The position numbers and the translations under genes are program-made. Below the pieces are notes generated by a model. The model did not search any database. It worked only from the letters and a program-made list of their open reading frames with translations, and was not told the DNA's origin. 40,913 nt of DNA from an uncultured Granulosicoccaceae bacterium. GTDB taxonomy: Bacteria; Pseudomonadota; Gammaproteobacteria; Granulosicoccales; Granulosicoccaceae. How positions within the stretch are numbered: the first letter of the stretch is position 1; each line of letters opens with the position of its first letter. Location: assembly GCA_938003855.1 (NCBI GenBank), contig CALKXD010000160.1:1-40913 (forward strand). Reading direction: 5' to 3'. Positions 4,878 through 17,321 of the stretch are shown here, piece after piece.

Positions 4878-5083
4878 GAATTATTCCTGATGTGGCTCAA
4901 CGGGTGCTGGTATTGCCTTGTGACGGTCAATCACTGGGAATCGACCGCGTCACGAATTATTTATTCAAGCTCCGGCGCAAACTCAGCGATAGAGCAGTAA
5001 GTGAATACCGGATTATAGCGATGTTCACCGCACATGTGTCGATATGGCCAGTGAACCCTCAGATATCGGCTGATTGGTCCTTT

Positions 5084-5112
5084 TCGACAGTGGGAAATGC
5101 GTCCATTCTAAA
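5084..5112 (+). promoter_or_regulatory. Candidate sigma-70 promoter for soeABC
   Basis: TCGACA (5084-5089) and TCTAAA (5107-5112) are separated by 17 bases. They match the -35 and -10 consensus at 5/6 and 4/6 positions. The predicted transcript would start near 5119, leaving a leader of about 18 bases before the soeA ATG. No regulator site was recognised. Confidence 0.35.
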
Positions 5113-5136
5113 CTCATTGCTTCCCTTCGGACTTCC

Positions 5137-8019
5137 ATGAGCCAACTTCCCGTATTTGAAGATCATGCTGCGCAGACCGTCAAAACCACCACCTGCTACA
5201 TGTGTGCGTGCCGGTGCGGAATCAAGGTGACGCTCGAGGGCGAACAGATCCGGTTCATACAGGGTAATCCGGATCACCCGATCAATAAAGGCGTGTTATG
5301 CGCCAAGGGTAATGCTGGAATCATGAAGCAGGTGTCGCCTGCGAAACTGACCCAGCCGATGCTTCGCAAGCAAGGCAGTGAGCGAGGATCAGGTGAATTC
5401 GAACCGATCAGCTGGGACGATGCGCTCGATATGCTGACGGCGCGACTGCGCCATATCCGCAATACCGATCCCCGCCAGCTTGCGTACTTTACCGGTCGTG
5501 ATCAAATGCAGGCATTGACTGGATTCTGGGCATCGCAATTTGGCACCATCAATTGGGCCGCTCACGGTGGTTTTTGCTCGGTGAATATGGCGGCCGGCGG
5601 GCTCTATATGATCGGTCAGTCGTTTTGGGAGTTCGGTGACCCGGACTGGGATCACGCCAAGTATTTTATGATGTGGGGCGTGGCTGAGGATCATGCATCC
5701 AACCCGATCAAGCTTGGTTTGGAAAAACTCAAGCGTCGCGGTTGCAAGTTTGTCGCGATTAATCCTGTTCGAACCGGCTACCAGGCCATTGCGGATGAAT
5801 GGATAGGCATCAAGCCAGGCTCCGACGGACTCCTTGCTCTGGCGTTTGTGCATGTATTGATGCGCAATGAGCTGTTCGATAAAGAATTTCTAATACGGTA
5901 TACCAACGGTACGCAGTTGGTCATTTGTGCGCCAGGTCAGAGCAATGACGGTCTGTTGCTTCGCGATGCTGATGGTGCCGCAATGGTGTGGAGTCTTGAC
6001 GCTGACACGGTCAAGGCATGGACCGATGTCGACTGTAATCCTGCGCTATTCGGTGAATACACAGTCACCGACGGCACCCGTGTAAAGACCGCGATGACTC
6101 TGCTGGCTGAGCGCTACCTTGATCAACGGTACGCGCCCGCCACGGTTGCGCCGCAGGTGGGTGTTGATACTGCAACCATAGAGCGCTTAGCGCTGGAAAT
6201 GGCCAATGTGGCGTTTCAGGAATCCATCGAAATACACACGCCGTGGACTGATTGGGCCGGACGTGAGCACGCGTCTTTTGTCGGTCGGCCGGTGGCGATG
6301 CATGCCATGCGAGGTATCTCGGCGCACAGCAATGGTTTTCAGACCTGTCGGGCGATCCACCTGGTGCAGGTGCTGCTTGGTGCGATTGATTGTCCGGGCG
6401 GGCATCTTGCCAAGCCACCTTTCCCAAGGCATTTGCCACCTCCGGTTAAGCCTGCCACCAAAATGGCCCCGAATACGCCACTCAGCGGAGCGCCGCTGGG
6501 TTTTCCGACATCGCCCGAAGATCTGGCTATCGACGAGAACGGACAGCCGTTGAGAATAGATAAGGCGTATTCATGGGAAGCGCCTATAGCCAACCATGGC
6601 CTGATGCACATGGTGATTAAAAATGCCGCTAACGCGGATCCCTATCCGATCGACACGCTGATGCTGTTCATGGCAAACATGGCCTGGAACTCCTCCATGA
6701 ATACTCAGGAGACACAGCGCATGCTGCAGGCCAAAGGCGATGACGGAGAATATAAAATACCCTTTATTGTCACCTGTGATGCTTTTCAAAGCGAGATGGT
6801 GCAGTACTCCGATCTAGTGCTTCCGGACACCACCTACCTTGAGCGTTTCGATACAATCTCGATGCTTGACCGCCCGATCTCCGAAGCCCATATGGCCTGT
6901 GACTCTATACGTCAGCCGGTATTGAAACCTGATCGCGATGTACGGCCATGGCAGGAGGTGATGCTCGATGTGGGTGCGCGGCTCGGGTTTCCGGCGCTGG
7001 TCGATGAAGCAGGGCAGCCAAAGTACAAAGGCTATAACGATTTCATCGTGAACTGGGAAAAGTCACCGGGTATCGGCTTTCTTGCCGGTTGGCGCGGTGA
7101 TGATGGCAGTAAGTCGCTGGTCGGCGAACCGAATCCCGAGCAATGGCAGGCGTACATTGATAACGACTGTTTTTTTGAACACGAGATCCCGCCCTCGCAG
7201 CGCTACTACCGGTTTGCCAACCGCGACTACCTTGCTTGGTCTAAGGAGGTCGGTTTTAACGCGCATGATGGCCCGATAGTGATGGAGATCTATTCCGAGA
7301 CGCTGCAGAAATTCAAGCTGGCCGGCCAGGGTTTGTACGATGGTCCGCAACCGGAACGGGATATCGATCGTCAACGCCTGGTGACATACTTCGATCCCAT
7401 GCCTGACTGGTATCTGCCGCTTGAACAGCAGCACATTGAGTCCAGCGACTACCCGTTTTTTGCCGTCAATCAGCGACCGATGTTCATGTATCACTCCTGG
7501 GATTCACAAAACGCCTGGCTAAGGCAGATCATGTCTCAAAATTACCTCTACATGAATCGCCAGCGCGGTGAGGACCTGGGGTTTGAGGATCTGCAGTGGG
7601 TGTGGGTAGAGTCGCACAACGGCAGGATTAAAGTGCAACTGAAATTGATGGAGGGTGTTAACAGTGACACCGTCTGGACCTGGAATGCCATTGCCAAGCA
7701 GCGTGGGGCGTGGGGGTTGGCGGCCAATGCACCTGAGGCGGAACGAGGTTTTTTGATGAACCACCTGATTGCCGAGACCCTGCCTGATTCCGGTGGACTG
7801 ACTAACTCGGATCCGGTTACCGGTCAGGCGGCCTGGTATGACCTGCGGGTAAAAATCACCGCCGCTGCCGCCGACGATGAAAAATCGTTGCCGCAGTTTG
7901 GCAAGACCTGGAAAGTACCCGGCCAGAAAGAGTCTGCCAGTGTTCTCCGCTACGCAGTGGGTAACTCGGTTAATATTAAACGCGGTTTAAAAGATATTCT
8001 GACACGAGGGTTAAAATAG
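5137..8019 (+). CDS. soeA: Molybdopterin oxidoreductase catalytic subunit, SoeA-like sulfite dehydrogenase
   Basis: This 960-residue protein of the DMSO reductase family starts with a 4Fe-4S site made of Cys20, Cys23, Cys27 and Cys55 (CYMCACRC, then GVLCAKGN). The AHGGFC segment puts Cys147 where the molybdenum ligand sits in related enzymes. The bis-MGD binding modules follow. There is no twin-arginine signal before the iron-sulfur site, so the enzyme should stay in the cytoplasm. That, the 960/241/307-residue subunit sizes and the anchor type match SoeABC, which oxidises sulfite to sulfate and passes electrons to quinone. The ATG at 5137 was preferred to an in-frame upstream GTG at 5074, which adds an unrelated leader. 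Alternatives are another cytoplasmic member of the family such as a polysulfide or formate enzyme; the family call is sure, the substrate less so. Confidence 0.8.
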   Translation: MSQLPVFEDHAAQTVKTTTCYMCACRCGIKVTLEGEQIRFIQGNPDHPINKGVLCAKGNAGIMKQVSPAKLTQPMLRKQGSERGSGEFEPISWDDALDMLTARLRHIRNTDPRQLAYFTGRDQMQALTGFWASQFGTINWAAHGGFCSVNMAAGGLYMIGQSFWEFGDPDWDHAKYFMMWGVAEDHASNPIKLGLEKLKRRGCKFVAINPVRTGYQAIADEWIGIKPGSDGLLALAFVHVLMRNELFDKEFLIRYTNGTQLVICAPGQSNDGLLLRDADGAAMVWSLDADTVKAWTDVDCNPALFGEYTVTDGTRVKTAMTLLAERYLDQRYAPATVAPQVGVDTATIERLALEMANVAFQESIEIHTPWTDWAGREHASFVGRPVAMHAMRGISAHSNGFQTCRAIHLVQVLLGAIDCPGGHLAKPPFPRHLPPPVKPATKMAPNTPLSGAPLGFPTSPEDLAIDENGQPLRIDKAYSWEAPIANHGLMHMVIKNAANADPYPIDTLMLFMANMAWNSSMNTQETQRMLQAKGDDGEYKIPFIVTCDAFQSEMVQYSDLVLPDTTYLERFDTISMLDRPISEAHMACDSIRQPVLKPDRDVRPWQEVMLDVGARLGFPALVDEAGQPKYKGYNDFIVNWEKSPGIGFLAGWRGDDGSKSLVGEPNPEQWQAYIDNDCFFEHEIPPSQRYYRFANRDYLAWSKEVGFNAHDGPIVMEIYSETLQKFKLAGQGLYDGPQPERDIDRQRLVTYFDPMPDWYLPLEQQHIESSDYPFFAVNQRPMFMYHSWDSQNAWLRQIMSQNYLYMNRQRGEDLGFEDLQWVWVESHNGRIKVQLKLMEGVNSDTVWTWNAIAKQRGAWGLAANAPEAERGFLMNHLIAETLPDSGGLTNSDPVTGQAAWYDLRVKITAAAADDEKSLPQFGKTWKVPGQKESASVLRYAVGNSVNIKRGLKDILTRGLK

Positions 8020-8744
8020 TGAAGCTAGGTCTGGTTATCGACCTCGATACCTGTGTTGGCTGCCACGCCTGTGCTGTGGCCTGTAAGCAGTGGAATGCCT
8101 CTGGCACCAGTGGTCCGTTGACTGATTATGATCCTTATGGCGGTGAGCCCAGTGGTGTCTGGTTTAATCGCATCAGAAACTATGAGGTCGATACCTACCC
8201 GAATAATAAAACCATCAATACGCCGATGTCGTGTATGCATTGCGAAGACGCGGCGTGCGTGACTGTCTGCCCCACTGGTGCATCCTATAAGCGTGAGGAA
8301 GATGGCATCGTGCTGGTTGATCAGGACAAGTGCATGGGCTGTAACTATTGTGCCTGGGCCTGTCCCTATGGCGCGCGTGAACTCGATCGTGAATCCGGCA
8401 CCATGAAAAAGTGTACGCTATGCGTTGATCGCATTTACGATGAAGAACTGCCCGAGGCTGAACGACAACCCGCTTGTGTTCTAACCTGTCCTACGCATGC
8501 GCGCTTTTTTGGCGACTTCGATGACCCCGACTCTGCTGTCAGTACGATGGTGCGGGAGCGTGGCGGCTATGCAATGATGCCAGAGGTGGGCTATCAGCCA
8601 ACCAATAAGTATCTACCACCGCGCACCAAACCGGTGGTGGAAACCCATGCTGAAAAACCACCGCAATCGAATGCCGGCGGTACTGAAAAACCGTTGTCCC
8701 AGATTCAGCGCTGGATAGCGCAGCAACTTGCACGGCAGTCCTGA
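8019..8744 (+). CDS. soeB: Four-cluster 4Fe-4S electron transfer subunit, SoeB-like
   Basis: The 241-residue protein carries sixteen cysteines in four ferredoxin-type groups: Cys12/15/18/22, Cys72/75/80/84, Cys105/108/111/115 and Cys132/135/153/157. This is the DmsB/NrfC/PsrB-type electron wire that links a molybdoenzyme to its membrane anchor. It has no signal peptide, which agrees with a cytoplasmic complex. The GTG start overlaps the TAG stop of soeA by one base, so the two are translationally coupled. The C-terminal 70 residues are Pro-rich and lack cysteines. Confidence 0.85.
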   Translation: MKLGLVIDLDTCVGCHACAVACKQWNASGTSGPLTDYDPYGGEPSGVWFNRIRNYEVDTYPNNKTINTPMSCMHCEDAACVTVCPTGASYKREEDGIVLVDQDKCMGCNYCAWACPYGARELDRESGTMKKCTLCVDRIYDEELPEAERQPACVLTCPTHARFFGDFDDPDSAVSTMVRERGGYAMMPEVGYQPTNKYLPPRTKPVVETHAEKPPQSNAGGTEKPLSQIQRWIAQQLARQS

Positions 8745-9667
8745 TGCATCCGGCTATCTCTGTCATTTGCTTTACCCTGCTTTCCGGAGCGGGTTACGGA
8801 TTGCTGTCGCTGCTATGTATGGATAGCTCTGTTGGCATTGGTCTGGAGTTGTCAGCACCGCGGCGAAATAGTCTAGTACTTGTCTCGCTGGTGTTAGTGA
8901 CCGTGGGTCTATTGTGCTCGACGTTCCATTTAGCCAACCCAAAAAATGCCTGGCGTGCGTTTTTTCGCTTTCGTACTTCGTGGTTATCCCGTGAAGGTGT
9001 GTTTGCCGTACTGCTTTATCCGGTGGTACTGATGTGGTTATTTGTCGTGTGGGGAGACGATCCGGCTGCGACTGGTGTGCCTGGCCGATTGCTGGCATTG
9101 CTAACGTTGCTGCTGTCTATGGCAACGTTGTTTTCGACCGGGATGATCTATGCCTGCCTGAAAACCATTCGGCAATGGAACACCGCGCTGACACCAGCCA
9201 ATTACCTGTTACTGGGCTTGATGCTCGGAGCACTGATTTTACTGGTCGTTTCCAGCGCCGGCAGTATTGGAAAAATCGCGCCGGGCTTGATTGTCATTGC
9301 TGGCAGTGCCAAGGCTATCTATTTTTATTGGATCGGTCAGCCCGCCGGGCCCACGATAAACTCGGCACTGGGGTTTACGCGCGCCACTGTGAGGTTGCTC
9401 GATGTAGGCCACGGTACCGGTAATTTTTTAACCGACGAATTCGGCTATCAAGTGGCGCAGGCCAAACTGATGTGGCTCCGTGTTATCTGTCTGTTGTGCG
9501 CCTTTGTCCTGCCGTTGCTGTTGTTGTCCATAGCGGGTACGGACAGCTTGCCGGTCAATATTGTCGCGCTGGTAGTGGCTTTTGGTGGTGTGTTTGTTGA
9601 GCGTTGGTTGTTTTTTGCCGAGGCGCGGCACGTGGTTAATTTGTACCACGGTGCTCAGTCGACCTGA
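8744..9667 (+). CDS. soeC: DmsC-type membrane anchor subunit, SoeC-like
   Basis: The 307-residue polytopic protein has about eight hydrophobic segments and resembles the DmsC quinone-linked anchor family. Recognisable points are the N-terminal FTLLSGAGYGLLSLL, the loop with STFHLANPKNAWRAFFRFRTSWLSREGVF, and the C-terminal FVERWLFFAEARHVVNLYHG. The first loop is a strong DmsC signature. It would hold the SoeAB dimer on the cytoplasmic face of the inner membrane and hand electrons to quinone. The ATG overlaps the soeB stop as TGATG, and a hairpin terminator follows 18 bases after its stop. No separate cytochrome subunit is encoded. Confidence 0.8.
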   Translation: MHPAISVICFTLLSGAGYGLLSLLCMDSSVGIGLELSAPRRNSLVLVSLVLVTVGLLCSTFHLANPKNAWRAFFRFRTSWLSREGVFAVLLYPVVLMWLFVVWGDDPAATGVPGRLLALLTLLLSMATLFSTGMIYACLKTIRQWNTALTPANYLLLGLMLGALILLVVSSAGSIGKIAPGLIVIAGSAKAIYFYWIGQPAGPTINSALGFTRATVRLLDVGHGTGNFLTDEFGYQVAQAKLMWLRVICLLCAFVLPLLLLSIAGTDSLPVNIVALVVAFGGVFVERWLFFAEARHVVNLYHGAQST

Positions 9668-11809: not shown

Positions 11810-11884
11810 CCCGAGACCTACTGCAGTGCGTGAGTGCCGGGTTAAATGCGTGCGGCTCAGCCGAGTTGAACTACCGAGGGTTTG

Positions 11885-13030
11885 ATGGCGAAGACCAGTG
11901 CGGGCATCGACCCGAAGACTGCCTACCGAAATGCGGTTGATACCGGTGTATTGACGGTCGACCAGCGCCAGGCTGAGGTCGTTGAGCGCTTGCAGGACTT
12001 GCATCAAAGAGTACTCGCAGCAGAGCAGATGCGGCCGGTTAAGCGCACCCGCGGCGGCTTTTTTCAGTCACTGTTTGGCAGGCAGCCTGCTCCTGAGCCG
12101 GCAGCTACTGTCAACGGGTTGTATCTGTGGGGTGGTGTCGGTCGCGGTAAAACATTGTTGTGCGATATGTTTTTCGATGGCTTGCCTATCGCGCGTAAAA
12201 AGCGCACGCATTTTCATCGTTTCATGCGCGGGGTTCATCAGCAGCTGGCAGAGATCAGGCACGCTGAATCTCCGCTGGAGATTGTCGCAGAGCGTTTTGC
12301 CAGCGAGTTCCAGGTGCTGGTACTGGATGAGATGCACGTTAACGATATTGCAGACGCGATGCTCATGAGCGGCTTGTTGAAGGGCTTGTTCAGTCGAGGG
12401 GTCACCGTCGTGACGACATCCAATGTGCTGCCGGACGACTTGTATCGTGACGGCTTACAGCGAGCCAGTTTTTTGCCAGCCATCGAATTACTGAAGCAGT
12501 TTACGGAGGTGATTTTTTTAGGCGGTGATATCGACTATCGGATGCGTTTGCTGTCGAATGCCGAAATTTATCACGCGCCACTCGATGAGCACGGTAACTC
12601 GATGCTTCGGTCTTACTTTATGGGGTTGGCGGGGTCTGCCGTGCACCGGGAGCGGGTTGGGCTGGAGATTAATGATCGTTCCATAGATACCATTTTGCTG
12701 GCCGACGGTGTGGTGTGGTTTGCGTTTGACGCTTTGTGTAATACCACCAGATCTACAGACGACTACATAGAAATTGCACGCTTGTTCCACACGGTTCTGG
12801 TCAGTGATATCGCTGTGATGGACGACAAAAGCAGTGATACGGCCAGGCGATTCATCAATATGATTGACGAGTTTTATGATCGCAACGTAAAACTGGTTGT
12901 CACCGCGGATGCGCTACCGGAAAGCCTGTACCAGGCGCAGCGTTTGAGGTTCGAGTTTGAGCGCACCGCCAGCCGTCTGCGCGAGATGCAGTCTTCGGAA
13001 TACCTGGCTAGCGGGCATAAGTCAATATAG
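11885..13030 (+). CDS. zapE: Cell division ATPase ZapE (AFG1-like)
   Basis: The 381-residue protein is an AFG1/ZapE P-loop ATPase. Walker A is GGVGRGKT at residues 83-90, and Walker B is VLVLDE near 144-149, followed by MHVNDIADAM. HFHRFMRGVH, TTSNVLPDDLYRDGLQR and the C-terminal RFEFERTASRLREMQS are family signatures. ZapE binds FtsZ and modulates the Z ring; related mitochondrial proteins act in quality control. The ATG at 11885 has GAGGG upstream and was chosen over the TTG immediately before it. Its downstream neighbour runs towards it on the other strand. Confidence 0.93.
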   Translation: MAKTSAGIDPKTAYRNAVDTGVLTVDQRQAEVVERLQDLHQRVLAAEQMRPVKRTRGGFFQSLFGRQPAPEPAATVNGLYLWGGVGRGKTLLCDMFFDGLPIARKKRTHFHRFMRGVHQQLAEIRHAESPLEIVAERFASEFQVLVLDEMHVNDIADAMLMSGLLKGLFSRGVTVVTTSNVLPDDLYRDGLQRASFLPAIELLKQFTEVIFLGGDIDYRMRLLSNAEIYHAPLDEHGNSMLRSYFMGLAGSAVHRERVGLEINDRSIDTILLADGVVWFAFDALCNTTRSTDDYIEIARLFHTVLVSDIAVMDDKSSDTARRFINMIDEFYDRNVKLVVTADALPESLYQAQRLRFEFERTASRLREMQSSEYLASGHKSI

Positions 13031-13124
13031 CAATCGTGCCGCAGCGAATCGGAATACGCCAGCCTGGCGTTGTTCTCATCAGTGTTTTGCGTTCATTGGT
13101 TGCTGCAGAAAATCCTGTGTGTTG

Positions 13125-14393
13125 CTAGCTGTCGCCCTTTTCACCAGCGTCGTTTTCCTGCTTGCGCGTTGCCGCCTTTCGTTTAGCTGGCTTGGGAGTC
13201 GCGGTGGTATCTCCGTCTACAGCGGTGGCTTTTTTCCGGGTGGCAGGTTTTTTTTGCGTGCCTGCAGGAGGGGCAGCGGTGGTTTTAGTCGCAGTCGCTT
13301 TGGTCTTGGTAGGCGCGGGACTGTCTGGTGCTGGCTGATTAGTTTTCGGGGTGGCCGGCTTGCGGCGCGCGGCACGGCGTGGCGCCGGTGTTTCGTCAGA
13401 GTCCGCTTTGACCTCAGGTGCTTTTGGCGCCGCAGCGGGTGTCCCGTTATTAGTCGCCTTGGCTGCTGGTGTTTTGTCTGCGTCCGGCTTTGCTGTGCTC
13501 TGGCTGGTCGGAGAGGGGGCAGGAGGCGCTGCTGCAATCGACTGGTCAGCGGTGTTTGCAATCGCGGGGCTGCTGTTGCCCGGGTTGGTTTGTGTTGCGT
13601 CTACATTTTTTGAGTCATTGCTTGCGACGGTCGGGGTGTTGTCAGTAGCTTGCGCGGTGTCAGTGCCGGCTGCAGTGCCCGAGTTTTGATTGTGCTGGCG
13701 CGAATTTGTTCGCTGAGTGCCATTTCTGTTGTTATTGTTATTGTTATTGTTATTGTTGTTTCGGCGCTGCCGGTTATTGCGCTGGCCATTGACCCGTTTG
13801 TTGTCACCCTGTGTGGTGGCACCGTTACTTGACTGGCGAGATGACTGGCTTTCACCTGCTTCGGCTTTTTCCAGCGCAATTTGCCTGGCTGCATAGCGGG
13901 CCTGATCTTCCCGGTACCACTCGCTGCCCTTTGTCTGGCTAATGCCGAAGTAGCTGCCACTGTCAGAGGGCGACCAATATTGGCCGTTCTGCTGAGGTCT
14001 GGCACTGCGCCGATTACCGGAGACATTGCCGTCGTTGCGTCTGCCATTTGCGCGCTGTCTGTTGCCGTTGTTACCAGAGTTTCCACTGAACATATCGTCT
14101 GCGAAGCTGTTGCCGCGGTTGTGATTACCGTTGCCTGCGTTGCGAAAATCAGACTCTGAATCGGGTTTACCGCTGTTGCCGTTTTTCTTGTTTGATCTGT
14201 TGTTTTGAGGTTTGTTGCGACGCTGTGGCTGTTTAGCGTTACGCGCGTTTTCAGGTTTTGGCCCCTGCGCTCCGTCACCACCGCCGCTGCGGTTTCCGTT
14301 GTTTCCACTGCCGTCGTTAGGGCGTGGACGGTTGCGACCGCGCAGTCCTCGTGGCCCCGGATGTCTACGTTGTTTTTCTGGTAATTCTGCCAT
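13125..14393 (-). CDS. Disordered Asn/Arg/Lys-rich low-complexity protein, unknown function
   Basis: No family was recognised for this 422-residue protein. Residues 1-130 are rich in Arg, Asn and Gly. Residues 139-182 form the only mixed-composition segment, including YWSPSDSGSYFGISQTKGS and then EWYREDQARYAARQIALEKAEAGE, which could be helical. A run of eleven Asn follows at 212-222. Residues 230-330 are Ala/Thr/Pro-rich. Residues 335-415 carry repeated Lys/Arg-Pro-Ala patches such as RRKPATPK, KKPATRKKA and PKPAKRKAATRK, reminiscent of histone H1 tails. There is no signal peptide or membrane segment. The basic ends suggest nucleic-acid binding or a ribonucleoprotein role, but this is inference. 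The frame was chosen because it is open for 1.27 kb and its composition is coherent; no strong ribosome site precedes the ATG. Confidence 0.65.
   Translation of the reverse strand: MAELPEKQRRHPGPRGLRGRNRPRPNDGSGNNGNRSGGGDGAQGPKPENARNAKQPQRRNKPQNNRSNKKNGNSGKPDSESDFRNAGNGNHNRGNSFADDMFSGNSGNNGNRQRANGRRNDGNVSGNRRSARPQQNGQYWSPSDSGSYFGISQTKGSEWYREDQARYAARQIALEKAEAGESQSSRQSSNGATTQGDNKRVNGQRNNRQRRNNNNNNNNNNNRNGTQRTNSRQHNQNSGTAAGTDTAQATDNTPTVASNDSKNVDATQTNPGNSSPAIANTADQSIAAAPPAPSPTSQSTAKPDADKTPAAKATNNGTPAAAPKAPEVKADSDETPAPRRAARRKPATPKTNQPAPDSPAPTKTKATATKTTAAPPAGTQKKPATRKKATAVDGDTTATPKPAKRKAATRKQENDAGEKGDS
13728..13761. repeat. TTATTG hexamer tandem repeat inside the low-complexity gene
   Basis: About four perfect TTATTG units with degenerate edges occur here. 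Read on the minus strand they give alternating AAC and AAT codons, the eleven-Asn run of the gene at 13125-14393. Units of six bases keep the frame if the number changes, so length variants would be tolerated. Confidence 0.85.
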
Positions 14394-15224
14394 GGGTATC
14401 GACGTATTTTCGAATGTAGTGGGTTGGTGCTTCTATTACGAGTGATTCAACCGGGTACAGCCATGTATGGGTGCTGTCAGCCCTATTTGTTGCAAGTTAT
14501 CGGTTATTTGCAAATCATCACATCATATCGTTTGGTTACAACGGTGGTTTGACCGCGATGGCTCATGACGGTTGCGGTTTACCGGGCAAGCGTCGGGTTA
14601 ATTCCATTTAAGAATCGAGCCACAAAATATGCAGTGACCAGATTGTGACTGATAACCCAGTGGGCAGGGAGGTAGCCGTTGTGCAGCTTCTCACTTTGTG
14701 CCGTGACGCAATATCCGTTGCATTGTCGCGGTTTTTTCAACCATTACCGTGGCGCCGGGCGTTCTGCCTGTGCTGTGCCCCAACCGTCCATCGCGTGTAA
14801 CTATTTGTTGTTTTCACGTCTGCCCGAAGCAGAAGAAAGGCGCTGCCTCGAGACCGTTGCTTGTTTTTTGCTCTATTGAATTTCGCTAAGCCGAGTATCT
14901 GGTAATTCCAGATTTATCGGATCTGTCAGTGTCGATGGTATTTCCTGCTGTACCAGTGGAATTACGCTGAGCTGGACATTTGTCAGCTTTTCCCCCAAGG
15001 CGAATCCGCAGTATTGCCCGACAGTTATTTTGACTGCATTGCTGATGTCGATTGTCAGTCTCTGGCGTCTTGTCGCCAACCGGATGCAGGCATTCTGTCT
15101 AAATCGACAGCAAGAGTCTAGCAAATTTTAGACACAGCTGGGATGGTCTATTGCCATTTCCCGTCATGTGGCGACAATTTTAAGATTGAATTCAGAGCTT
15201 AGGAACAAGTTTAGCGTGGCCCGG
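14394..15224. other. 0.8-kb region without a secure gene
   Basis: No recognisable gene was found. A plus-strand frame at 14679-14879 has no protein-like pattern. A minus-strand frame at 14873-15124 (83 residues, TTG start, no ribosome site) reads partly protein-like, with VKITVGQYCGFALGEKL and an acidic end, but has no recognisable family. The region must hold the upstream sequence of the low-complexity gene that starts at 14393. No strong terminator or promoter stood out. Confidence 0.5.
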
Positions 15225-15443
15225 CTAGTTGGTGTAAGAGTCAATGGTGGACGATTTTGACGACCGGATGCCAGAGCTGGCTTGCACGTTGGCGGATGCA
15301 TTGGCAATGGTAGTCATTGGAATATTGATGATCAGCGAAGGCTCTTTCTGCACTACCTCTGATTTGGAGGTTAATTCGATAGGCTGTGACGTCAGGTACA
15401 GCAATACCGCTGCGAAGAGCAGCTGCGCGATCGTCAGTGGCAT
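15225..15443 (-). CDS. Possible small single-span membrane protein
   Basis: From an ATG at 15443 this would encode 72 residues. One hydrophobic segment (PLTIAQLLFAAVLLYLTS, residues 2-19) is followed by a Ser/Thr-rich polar tail ending in STIDSYTN. The frame is open further upstream to 15635, and a TTG at 15488 would add the basic, Pro-rich stretch KPLNHTKAPPWLTP in front of the membrane segment, a plausible cytoplasmic N-terminus. No ribosome site supports either start. No family was recognised. A competing plus-strand frame over the same bases is less protein-like. Confidence 0.3.
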   Translation of the reverse strand: MPLTIAQLLFAAVLLYLTSQPIELTSKSEVVQKEPSLIINIPMTTIANASANVQASSGIRSSKSSTIDSYTN

Positions 15444-15639
15444 AGGCGTTAGCCAGGGTGGTGCTTTCGTGTGATTCAGTGGCTTCAAGGTAAATCTGAG
15501 TGTCCCAGCTATTATCGTTATTTTATGCTTAGGGCTACCGCCTCGGCGTACAGCAGCTGACTGCCTGCAGGAAGTGTAATCTGATTTTCGACCGTTTTGG
15601 CACAGGAACGGTCTGTTTAACCGGCATGTAATCACAGGT

Positions 15640-15686: not shown

Positions 15687-16934
15687 TCAGCCTTTTGTGA
15701 ATTCCGGATACGCTTCCATGCCGCATTCGGAAATATCCACACCTTCGTACTCGTCTTCCTGACTGACGCGAATACCGAGGATGCCGTCGAGTAGTACCCA
15801 GACCATGATGCTGGTGACAAAGGTCCAGGCGAAAATACTGCCGATGCCAATCAGCTGTGTAACTGTGTTTGCGTCACTGTTGGTAATTGGCACGGCCAGC
15901 AGGCCCCAGATTCCCACGACACCATGCACCGAAATAGCACCGACAGGGTCGTCGAGCCGCAATTTATCGAGCGCCACGATAGATAACACGACCAGCATGC
16001 CGCCAACTGCGCCAATCAGGGTGGCATAGCCGGCGGACGGGGTGAGTGGTTCGGCGGTAATTGCCACCAGGCCGGCCAATGCGCCGTTCAGAGCCATGGT
16101 CAGATCAGCTTTACTGAATAATATCCGCGCCAGCACCAGCGCGGCGATAACGCCACCGGCGGCGGCCATATTGGTATTAACGAAGATTGCGGCGACAGCA
16201 TTGGCGTCGGACACGTTGGAAATTTTTAACTGCGAGCCACCGTTGAAGCCAAACCAGCCAAGCCAAAGAATGAAGGTGCCAAGTGTGGCGAGGGGTAGAT
16301 TAGCGCCCGGGATAGGGCGAACCTGTCCGTTCGGACCGTACTTGCCGGTTCGAGCGCCGAGAATCAATACGCCAGCGAGGGCCGCGGTAGCGCCGCATAG
16401 ATGAACAACACCTGAGCCGGCAAAGTCCTGGAAGCCCAACTCCTGCAGGAAGCCGCCACCCCATTTCCAGAAGCCCTGTACCGGGTAGATGACTGCGGTG
16501 AACACGGTGGCGAAAAAAAGAAATGCCCACAGCTTCATGCGTTCGGCAACAGCGCCTGAGACAATCGACATGGCGGTCGCGACAAACACGACCTGAAAGA
16601 AAAAGTCGGCCCGGCCAGAGTAGTACGGAGCATCCTCAGCACCGGAGATTACATCGGCCTGAGCATTGTCCGGGCTGAGGAGGAAGGAGATGCCGGGCCA
16701 GTAAGCGTTTACCGCTTCCCCCGGGTACATCATGTTATAGCCGCACAACAGATACATGATGCAGGCGATTGCAAACAGTGCAATGTTTTTGGTCAAAATT
16801 TCGGTGGTGTTCTTGGACCTTACAAGACCCGCTTCAAGCATGGCGAAGCCAGCAGCCATCCACATTACGAGAGCGCCGGACATCAGGAAATAGAAGGTGT
16901 CGAGAGCGTAGGAGAGTTCGGTGAGTTGTTCCAT
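15687..16934 (-). CDS. amtB: Ammonium transporter Amt
   Basis: The 415-residue protein of the Amt/Rh family has about eleven membrane segments. The twin pore histidines are seen as His178 (VVHLCGATAAL) and His337 (SVHGVVGIWG). The N-terminal MWMAAGFAMLEAGLVRSKNT, and the loop GWFGFNGGS with FVNTNMAAAGG, are family signatures. It moves ammonium across the inner membrane and is blocked by the PII protein GlnK when nitrogen is plentiful. glnK lies 18 bp upstream in the same direction, the standard glnK-amtB operon, and both should be expressed from the sigma-54 promoter upstream of glnK. Confidence 0.96.
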   Translation of the reverse strand: MEQLTELSYALDTFYFLMSGALVMWMAAGFAMLEAGLVRSKNTTEILTKNIALFAIACIMYLLCGYNMMYPGEAVNAYWPGISFLLSPDNAQADVISGAEDAPYYSGRADFFFQVVFVATAMSIVSGAVAERMKLWAFLFFATVFTAVIYPVQGFWKWGGGFLQELGFQDFAGSGVVHLCGATAALAGVLILGARTGKYGPNGQVRPIPGANLPLATLGTFILWLGWFGFNGGSQLKISNVSDANAVAAIFVNTNMAAAGGVIAALVLARILFSKADLTMALNGALAGLVAITAEPLTPSAGYATLIGAVGGMLVVLSIVALDKLRLDDPVGAISVHGVVGIWGLLAVPITNSDANTVTQLIGIGSIFAWTFVTSIMVWVLLDGILGIRVSQEDEYEGVDISECGMEAYPEFTKG

Positions 16935-16952
16935 TGTTCTATCCCTTATTAT

Positions 16953-17321
<369 letters not shown>

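Follow-up and report, generated by a model that had tools for sequence, protein, structure and literature searches.

The stretch of DNA analysed here (the window, 40,913 nucleotides, contig 160 of a 6.8-Mb genome) encodes an almost wholly disordered 422-residue protein with a single conserved helix. The protein belongs to an orphan family of a marine bacterial lineage that, as far as sequence searches reached, is confined to part of the Granulosicoccaceae. Its RNase E-like composition, taken together with the literature on RNase E tails, leads us to a tentative reading, the likeliest of those considered, at a probability of roughly 0.4: a cytoplasmic disordered scaffold, free-standing and associated with RNA, that uses its single helix for docking, the binding itself being something that we infer. 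Comparison of the members shows that a helix of about 20 residues carries the information in this protein, and some 400 residues of arms drift around it. The protein thereby offers a compact, testable case of bacterial scaffold building outside RNase E. If the arms do bind RNA, it would amount to a degradosome-like scaffold with no enzyme attached.

A conserved gene under selection

Positions 14393 down to 13125 on the minus strand form one open frame of 422 codons, the span including the stop, and a plus-strand reading of the same interval runs into in-frame stops. The original prediction had allowed that relatives might not keep this frame and had suggested comparing synonymous and nonsynonymous change among them. 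The frame proves to be open in each of the 13 members, counting that of the window, and is the only one of which this is true, although sense frame +1 is stop-free in two, G008 and G003. For the closest pair, G006/G013, the Nei-Gojobori method gives a dN/dS of 0.094 (266 codons), with values of 0.009 in the core, 0.096 in the N-terminal arm and 0.109 in the C-terminal arm. Among the 15 next most similar pairs listed, pN/pS ranges from 0.29 to 0.58, synonymous sites being saturated or nearly so in pairs other than G006/G013.

The core is present in 12 of the 14 genomes of the genus, and the two misses are uninformative: the contig of G004 stops 225 bases beyond its zapE match, and G007 has no zapE match. 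A member of a second genus, g2 (G014), carries the gene at the same chromosomal place, and at every genus locus whose contig extends to zapE the two genes are convergent. The spread of the core through the genus, the shared place in a second genus and the low dN/dS together indicate that the 422-residue ORF is a real gene under selection, more than a chance ORF. A spurious frame in compositionally skewed DNA might have been suspected from the extreme composition of the region, where the AT skew reaches -0.477 at 13001-14000, but frame, core and place are kept in 13 genomes and dN/dS lies far below 1; the conservation data refute this explanation and leave it next to no probability.

Distribution and family searches

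Disordered proteins mostly escape family searches, and this one, for which no family had been recognised in the original prediction, again has no relative in the larger collections. None of Pfam, NCBIfam and PHROGs has a model for it or gave a match to the window protein; extending the Pfam search to all 13 members, with E up to 1, returned 0 families, histone-like profiles included, and PDB profile searches gave a best E of only about 0.5 and no relative. NCBIfam likewise finds no RNase E/G catalytic domain (TIGR00757) in the protein, the RNase E/G family matches in G000 lying on other contigs, C1 and C284.

A search with the core through 48 genomes of the family (the order comprises the same 48) matched 14, including G029, whose match (E 0.0096) falls in an unrelated ORF, presumably YceI-like, and was dropped. 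The other four genera, 33 genomes in all, gave no true core match. In a class-wide draw of 369 genomes the core occurs in G000 and in none of the 368 others, viral contigs gave no core match, and a scan of GTDB contigs yielded 12 loci, all of this lineage and deposited as Granulosicoccaceae or Chromatiales. The genus mates are deposited under the same two names, one of them being the bryozoan symbiont 'Chromatiales bacterium (ex Bugula neritina AB1)'. With a core of 40 residues behind these searches, a far-diverged relative could escape them. In the open-access literature nothing was found on intrinsically disordered proteins in Granulosicoccus, and among the papers listed on Asn/Arg-rich condensate proteins and trans scaffolds none is recognisable as dealing with this protein.

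Disordered arms and the core helix

A disordered, almost wholly low-complexity protein with an eleven-Asn run and a single mixed-composition core at residues 139-182 had been predicted, and each of these features is borne out. Nearly all of the sequence is low-complexity; Ala (57), Asn (57) and Arg (40) are its most frequent residues, and Lys occurs 30 times. In a charge/hydropathy plot the protein lies far into the disordered side (H 0.318 vs a boundary of 0.441), and disorder prediction, also proposed at the outset, gives the same picture: AlphaFold2, run with 13 sequences, assigns pLDDT below 50 to 308 of 422 residues and predicts disorder outside one lone helix. The Asn/Gly/Arg-rich arm formed by residues 1-137 (13983-14393, minus strand) has a net charge of +17, and the Asn/Arg-rich residues 184-230 add +8. 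Net charge was computed for 10 complete members and for G003, which its contig end truncates (G005 and G014 were left out), and is positive in every one; the length of complete members ranges from 269 to 429 residues. The Asn run is present in the translation (13728-13760, minus strand), where it coincides with a tandem repeat of the hexamer TTGTTA (13729-13757). It measures 11 residues in G000 and G001, 18 in G003 and 2-4 in the others; because the run is encoded by a tandem repeat and varies in length, the hexanucleotide repeat is likely a slippage site.

The core holds the sole predicted helix, residues 158-183 (13845-13922, minus strand), with the invariant pattern W-Y-R-E-D-Q-A-R-x-A-x-x-Q-x-A-x-E. 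AlphaFold2 pLDDT is 91 and 83 in blocks 161-180, and a model of the G009 protein shows the same single helix at 141-166 (pLDDT about 73-76). Mean pairwise identity reaches 0.68 in the helix vs 0.23-0.35 elsewhere. Residues W159 to R166 (WYREDQAR), A168, Q171, A173 and E175 are invariant in all 13 members, as are D99, N111 and G137 outside the helix. A membrane amphipathic helix is disfavoured by the low hydrophobic moment of 0.06-0.14, compared with 0.34 for an RNase E stretch of the same genome taken as membrane-helix-like, and docking to protein or RNA therefore fits better than membrane binding.

The C-terminal module

Eight of the 13 members end in K-x-RRAPWRTQKH-x3-R, invariant across all eight, and the window's species lacks this motif. 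A Lys/Pro/Ala tail takes its place in G000, G001, G002 and G011, four of the 12 readable C-termini (G003 is cut by the contig end). In the window protein this Ala/Thr/Lys/Pro-rich tail spans residues 331-422 (13128-13403, minus strand), has a net charge of +11 and contains 0 KPAA repeats. The H1-like tail, which the original prediction had emphasised, thus does not define the family but belongs to a minority of it, the other eight readable members ending in RRAPWRTQKH; within one genus, a second conserved motif has been swapped for it.

The presence of the RRAPWRTQKH motif in G014, a member of the second genus, makes it probable that the motif is ancestral. The tree prefers two independent losses, but a one-loss tree grouping the four motif-less species with the truncated G003 is not rejected (AU p 0.302). 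A motif search matched 12 of the 48 genomes, with eight true matches at 53-63 bits; five places with scores of 15.8-17.9 bits, in G014, G031, G034, G036 and G047, were set aside as chance matches. In the G009 model the motif is disordered.

Likeness to RNase E and a possible mode of action

Composition was compared over 307 kb of the same genome, namely the window and 20 further stretches, one of them picked for holding RNase E. The segments compared were low-hydrophobic and at least 90 residues long, and 16 were left after removal of the protein itself (two rows) and of a masked stretch. The closest is the RNase E noncatalytic segment, at a Jensen-Shannon distance of 0.024, and the other 15 lie between 0.064 and 0.275. 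This ranking lends support to the resemblance to RNA-protein scaffolds that had been put forward at the start. Gammaproteobacterial RNase E noncatalytic regions are described as ANR-rich and then AEPV-rich with embedded microdomains (PMC4435900), and in the Pseudomonas aeruginosa RNase E tail both REER repeats and Arg-rich motifs have been shown to bind RNA and to drive foci (PMC11964227). Like such a region, the orphan is disordered and Ala/Asn/Arg-rich, with Arg-rich patches and a short conserved microdomain in a fast-changing background; unlike RNase E, it is free-standing and lacks a catalytic domain. Neither its helix nor the RRAPWRTQKH motif was seen in the five RNase E tails read, and family searches found neither outside this gene.

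As an RNA-associated scaffold, the disordered, positively charged protein would act in the cytoplasm, its floppy arms holding RNA or DNA while the helix at 158-183, the only ordered piece, docks on one particular partner protein that evolves slowly. The C-terminal module, whether RRAPWRTQKH or the Lys/Pro/Ala tail, might supply a second basic contact with a lineage-specific evolution of its own, and the assembly might form foci. Against this proposal, compositional likeness is not homology and cannot tell RNA from DNA, and the neighbouring genes (those for ZapE, YgjP, AmtB/GlnK and ComM) give no pointer to RNA.

A narrower version would make the protein a lineage-specific counterpart of the RNase E scaffold, with Arg/Asn arms that bind RNA, an invariant helix that recruits one RNA-decay or translation factor, RNA-protein foci and a long, constrained 5' leader that could allow self-control of synthesis; we consider it improbable. 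The idea that the orphan replaces a lost RNase E scaffold in trans finds no support. Of the 16 genomes searched, 14 carry RNase E open frames of 1012-1340 residues, whether or not their genus has the orphan, the exceptions being G002, with one short RNase E/G match, and G046, with frames of 451 and 491 residues only. As RNase E keeps its long C-terminal region in these genomes, the orphan is no stand-in for it. The Asn content of orphan and RNase E shows no convincing tracking over 7 genomes.

Alternative explanations

Positive charge throughout the members computed would also suit an H1-like nucleoid protein, whose basic tail and arms would coat or bridge DNA and whose helix would recruit it to the nucleoid or to a division factor. 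The four members with a Lys/Pro/Ala tail add to this case, the window's species resembling AlgP and Hc2 in having a Lys/Ala/Pro-rich basic tail. This explanation is nevertheless unlikely, since the tail is missing in 8 of the 12 members with a readable C-terminus, none of the 13 members has a Pfam match, and Asn and Arg both exceed Lys in the window protein; a tail that is not family-wide and has no KPAA repeat, Asn/Arg-rich arms and a conserved helix all separate the orphan from AlgP and Hc2. The protein might instead be an adaptor for one particular partner, with the arms serving only as linkers and the work done by the helix, together with the C-terminal motif where there is one; it might, for example, bring a client to a protease or to ZapE. 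Conservation concentrated on the helix, the wide range of lengths among complete members and the convergent arrangement with zapE at every locus whose contig reaches it are all consistent with such a role. The arms, however, likewise have a low dN/dS, close to 0.1 for G006/G013, and retain an Arg/Asn character, and zapE occurs without this gene in several g5 genomes, where a different gene, presumably for a TypA-like GTPase, follows it. An adaptor of this kind seems rather unlikely.

The layout of the protein also recalls SutA, an RNA polymerase-associated factor, and a SutA-like role would have the single middle helix docking on the polymerase beta subunit. SutA shares with the orphan a single middle helix (20-26 residues) flanked by disordered tails, but its N-terminal region is D/E-rich (PMC9300723), whereas the arms of the orphan are basic and an acidic N-terminal region is not found in residues 1-137. 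SutA is also small (its PDB chain has 109 residues), and profile comparison shows no sequence relation: hhalign against a 41-residue SutA piece, covering the helix end and the C-terminal part, gave a probability of 0.1, on which ground identity with SutA was rejected. A SutA search of the 48 genomes gave no match and, having no positive control, is no evidence of absence. In Pseudomonas, sutA adjoins glnK-amtB, and the orphan has a similar chromosomal spot next to this pair in G000, G002, G003, G008, G011 and G014, but the pair is missing there in G001, G006, G009, G010, G012 and G013. A SutA-like function is on balance very unlikely. PopZ is a disordered protein with a conserved helical piece and an acidic linker; the likeness to PopZ-like scaffolds consists in the disorder and the conserved helical piece.

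Upstream element and leader

Of the 12 upstream regions examined, 10 contain a promoter-like element, AAAATTTGCTAGACT (15115-15129 in the window, minus strand), at 0-1 mismatches, placed 423-721 nt ahead of the ATG. Nine of these are exact copies of the 15-base element AAARTTTGCTARACT, and that of G002 has one mismatch; within 900 nt upstream the element was not found in G008 or G014, and G005, whose contig begins near the gene, lies outside the 12 regions. The element is the only match in the window at up to 2 mismatches (0.26 expected), and exact matches among 159 loci are limited to the loci around this gene. We take it to resemble an extended -10 or sigma-S type promoter, and it may be the promoter of the orphan gene.

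The long upstream leader that follows (14394-15114, minus strand) contains no recognised gene or Rfam family. In the G006/G013 pair the first 330 alignment columns of the leader after the element show 91% identity, compared with a synonymous divergence of 0.31-0.58 in five neighbouring genes, which indicates that the leader is constrained in this pair. No consistent fold emerged, with z at -0.96 for the window's leader and at -2.26 for that of G013, and a structured leader RNA is not claimed.

Genomic neighbourhood

One flank of the gene holds zapE (11882-13030, convergent), a gene for a YgjP-like metallopeptidase and a Na+/H+ antiporter gene, named by family-profile search (ZapE/AFG1_ATPase, YgjP and antiporter). 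On the other flank are a small ORF and genes that we take, from their translations, to be amtB, glnK and comM. The small ORF (15225-15635, minus strand; L098:6503-6730) lies between amtB and the gene for the disordered protein, contains the hydrophobic stretch FAAVLLYLT and is a candidate small membrane protein with an uncertain start codon. Counterparts are found upstream of the gene in G001, G009, G010, G012 and G014, with partial tblastn matches in G011 and G013. The amtB-glnK pair (15687-17303, minus strand) is present at this spot in six genomes and absent from it in six, as named above. Elsewhere in the window, a three-gene molybdopterin oxidoreductase operon (5074-9667, plus strand) occurs also in G005, G006, G008 and G013 and is missing at the spot in G001, G002, G009, G010, G012 and G014, and is thus a variable insertion, flanked by an epimerase-like gene on one side and the antiporter gene on the other.
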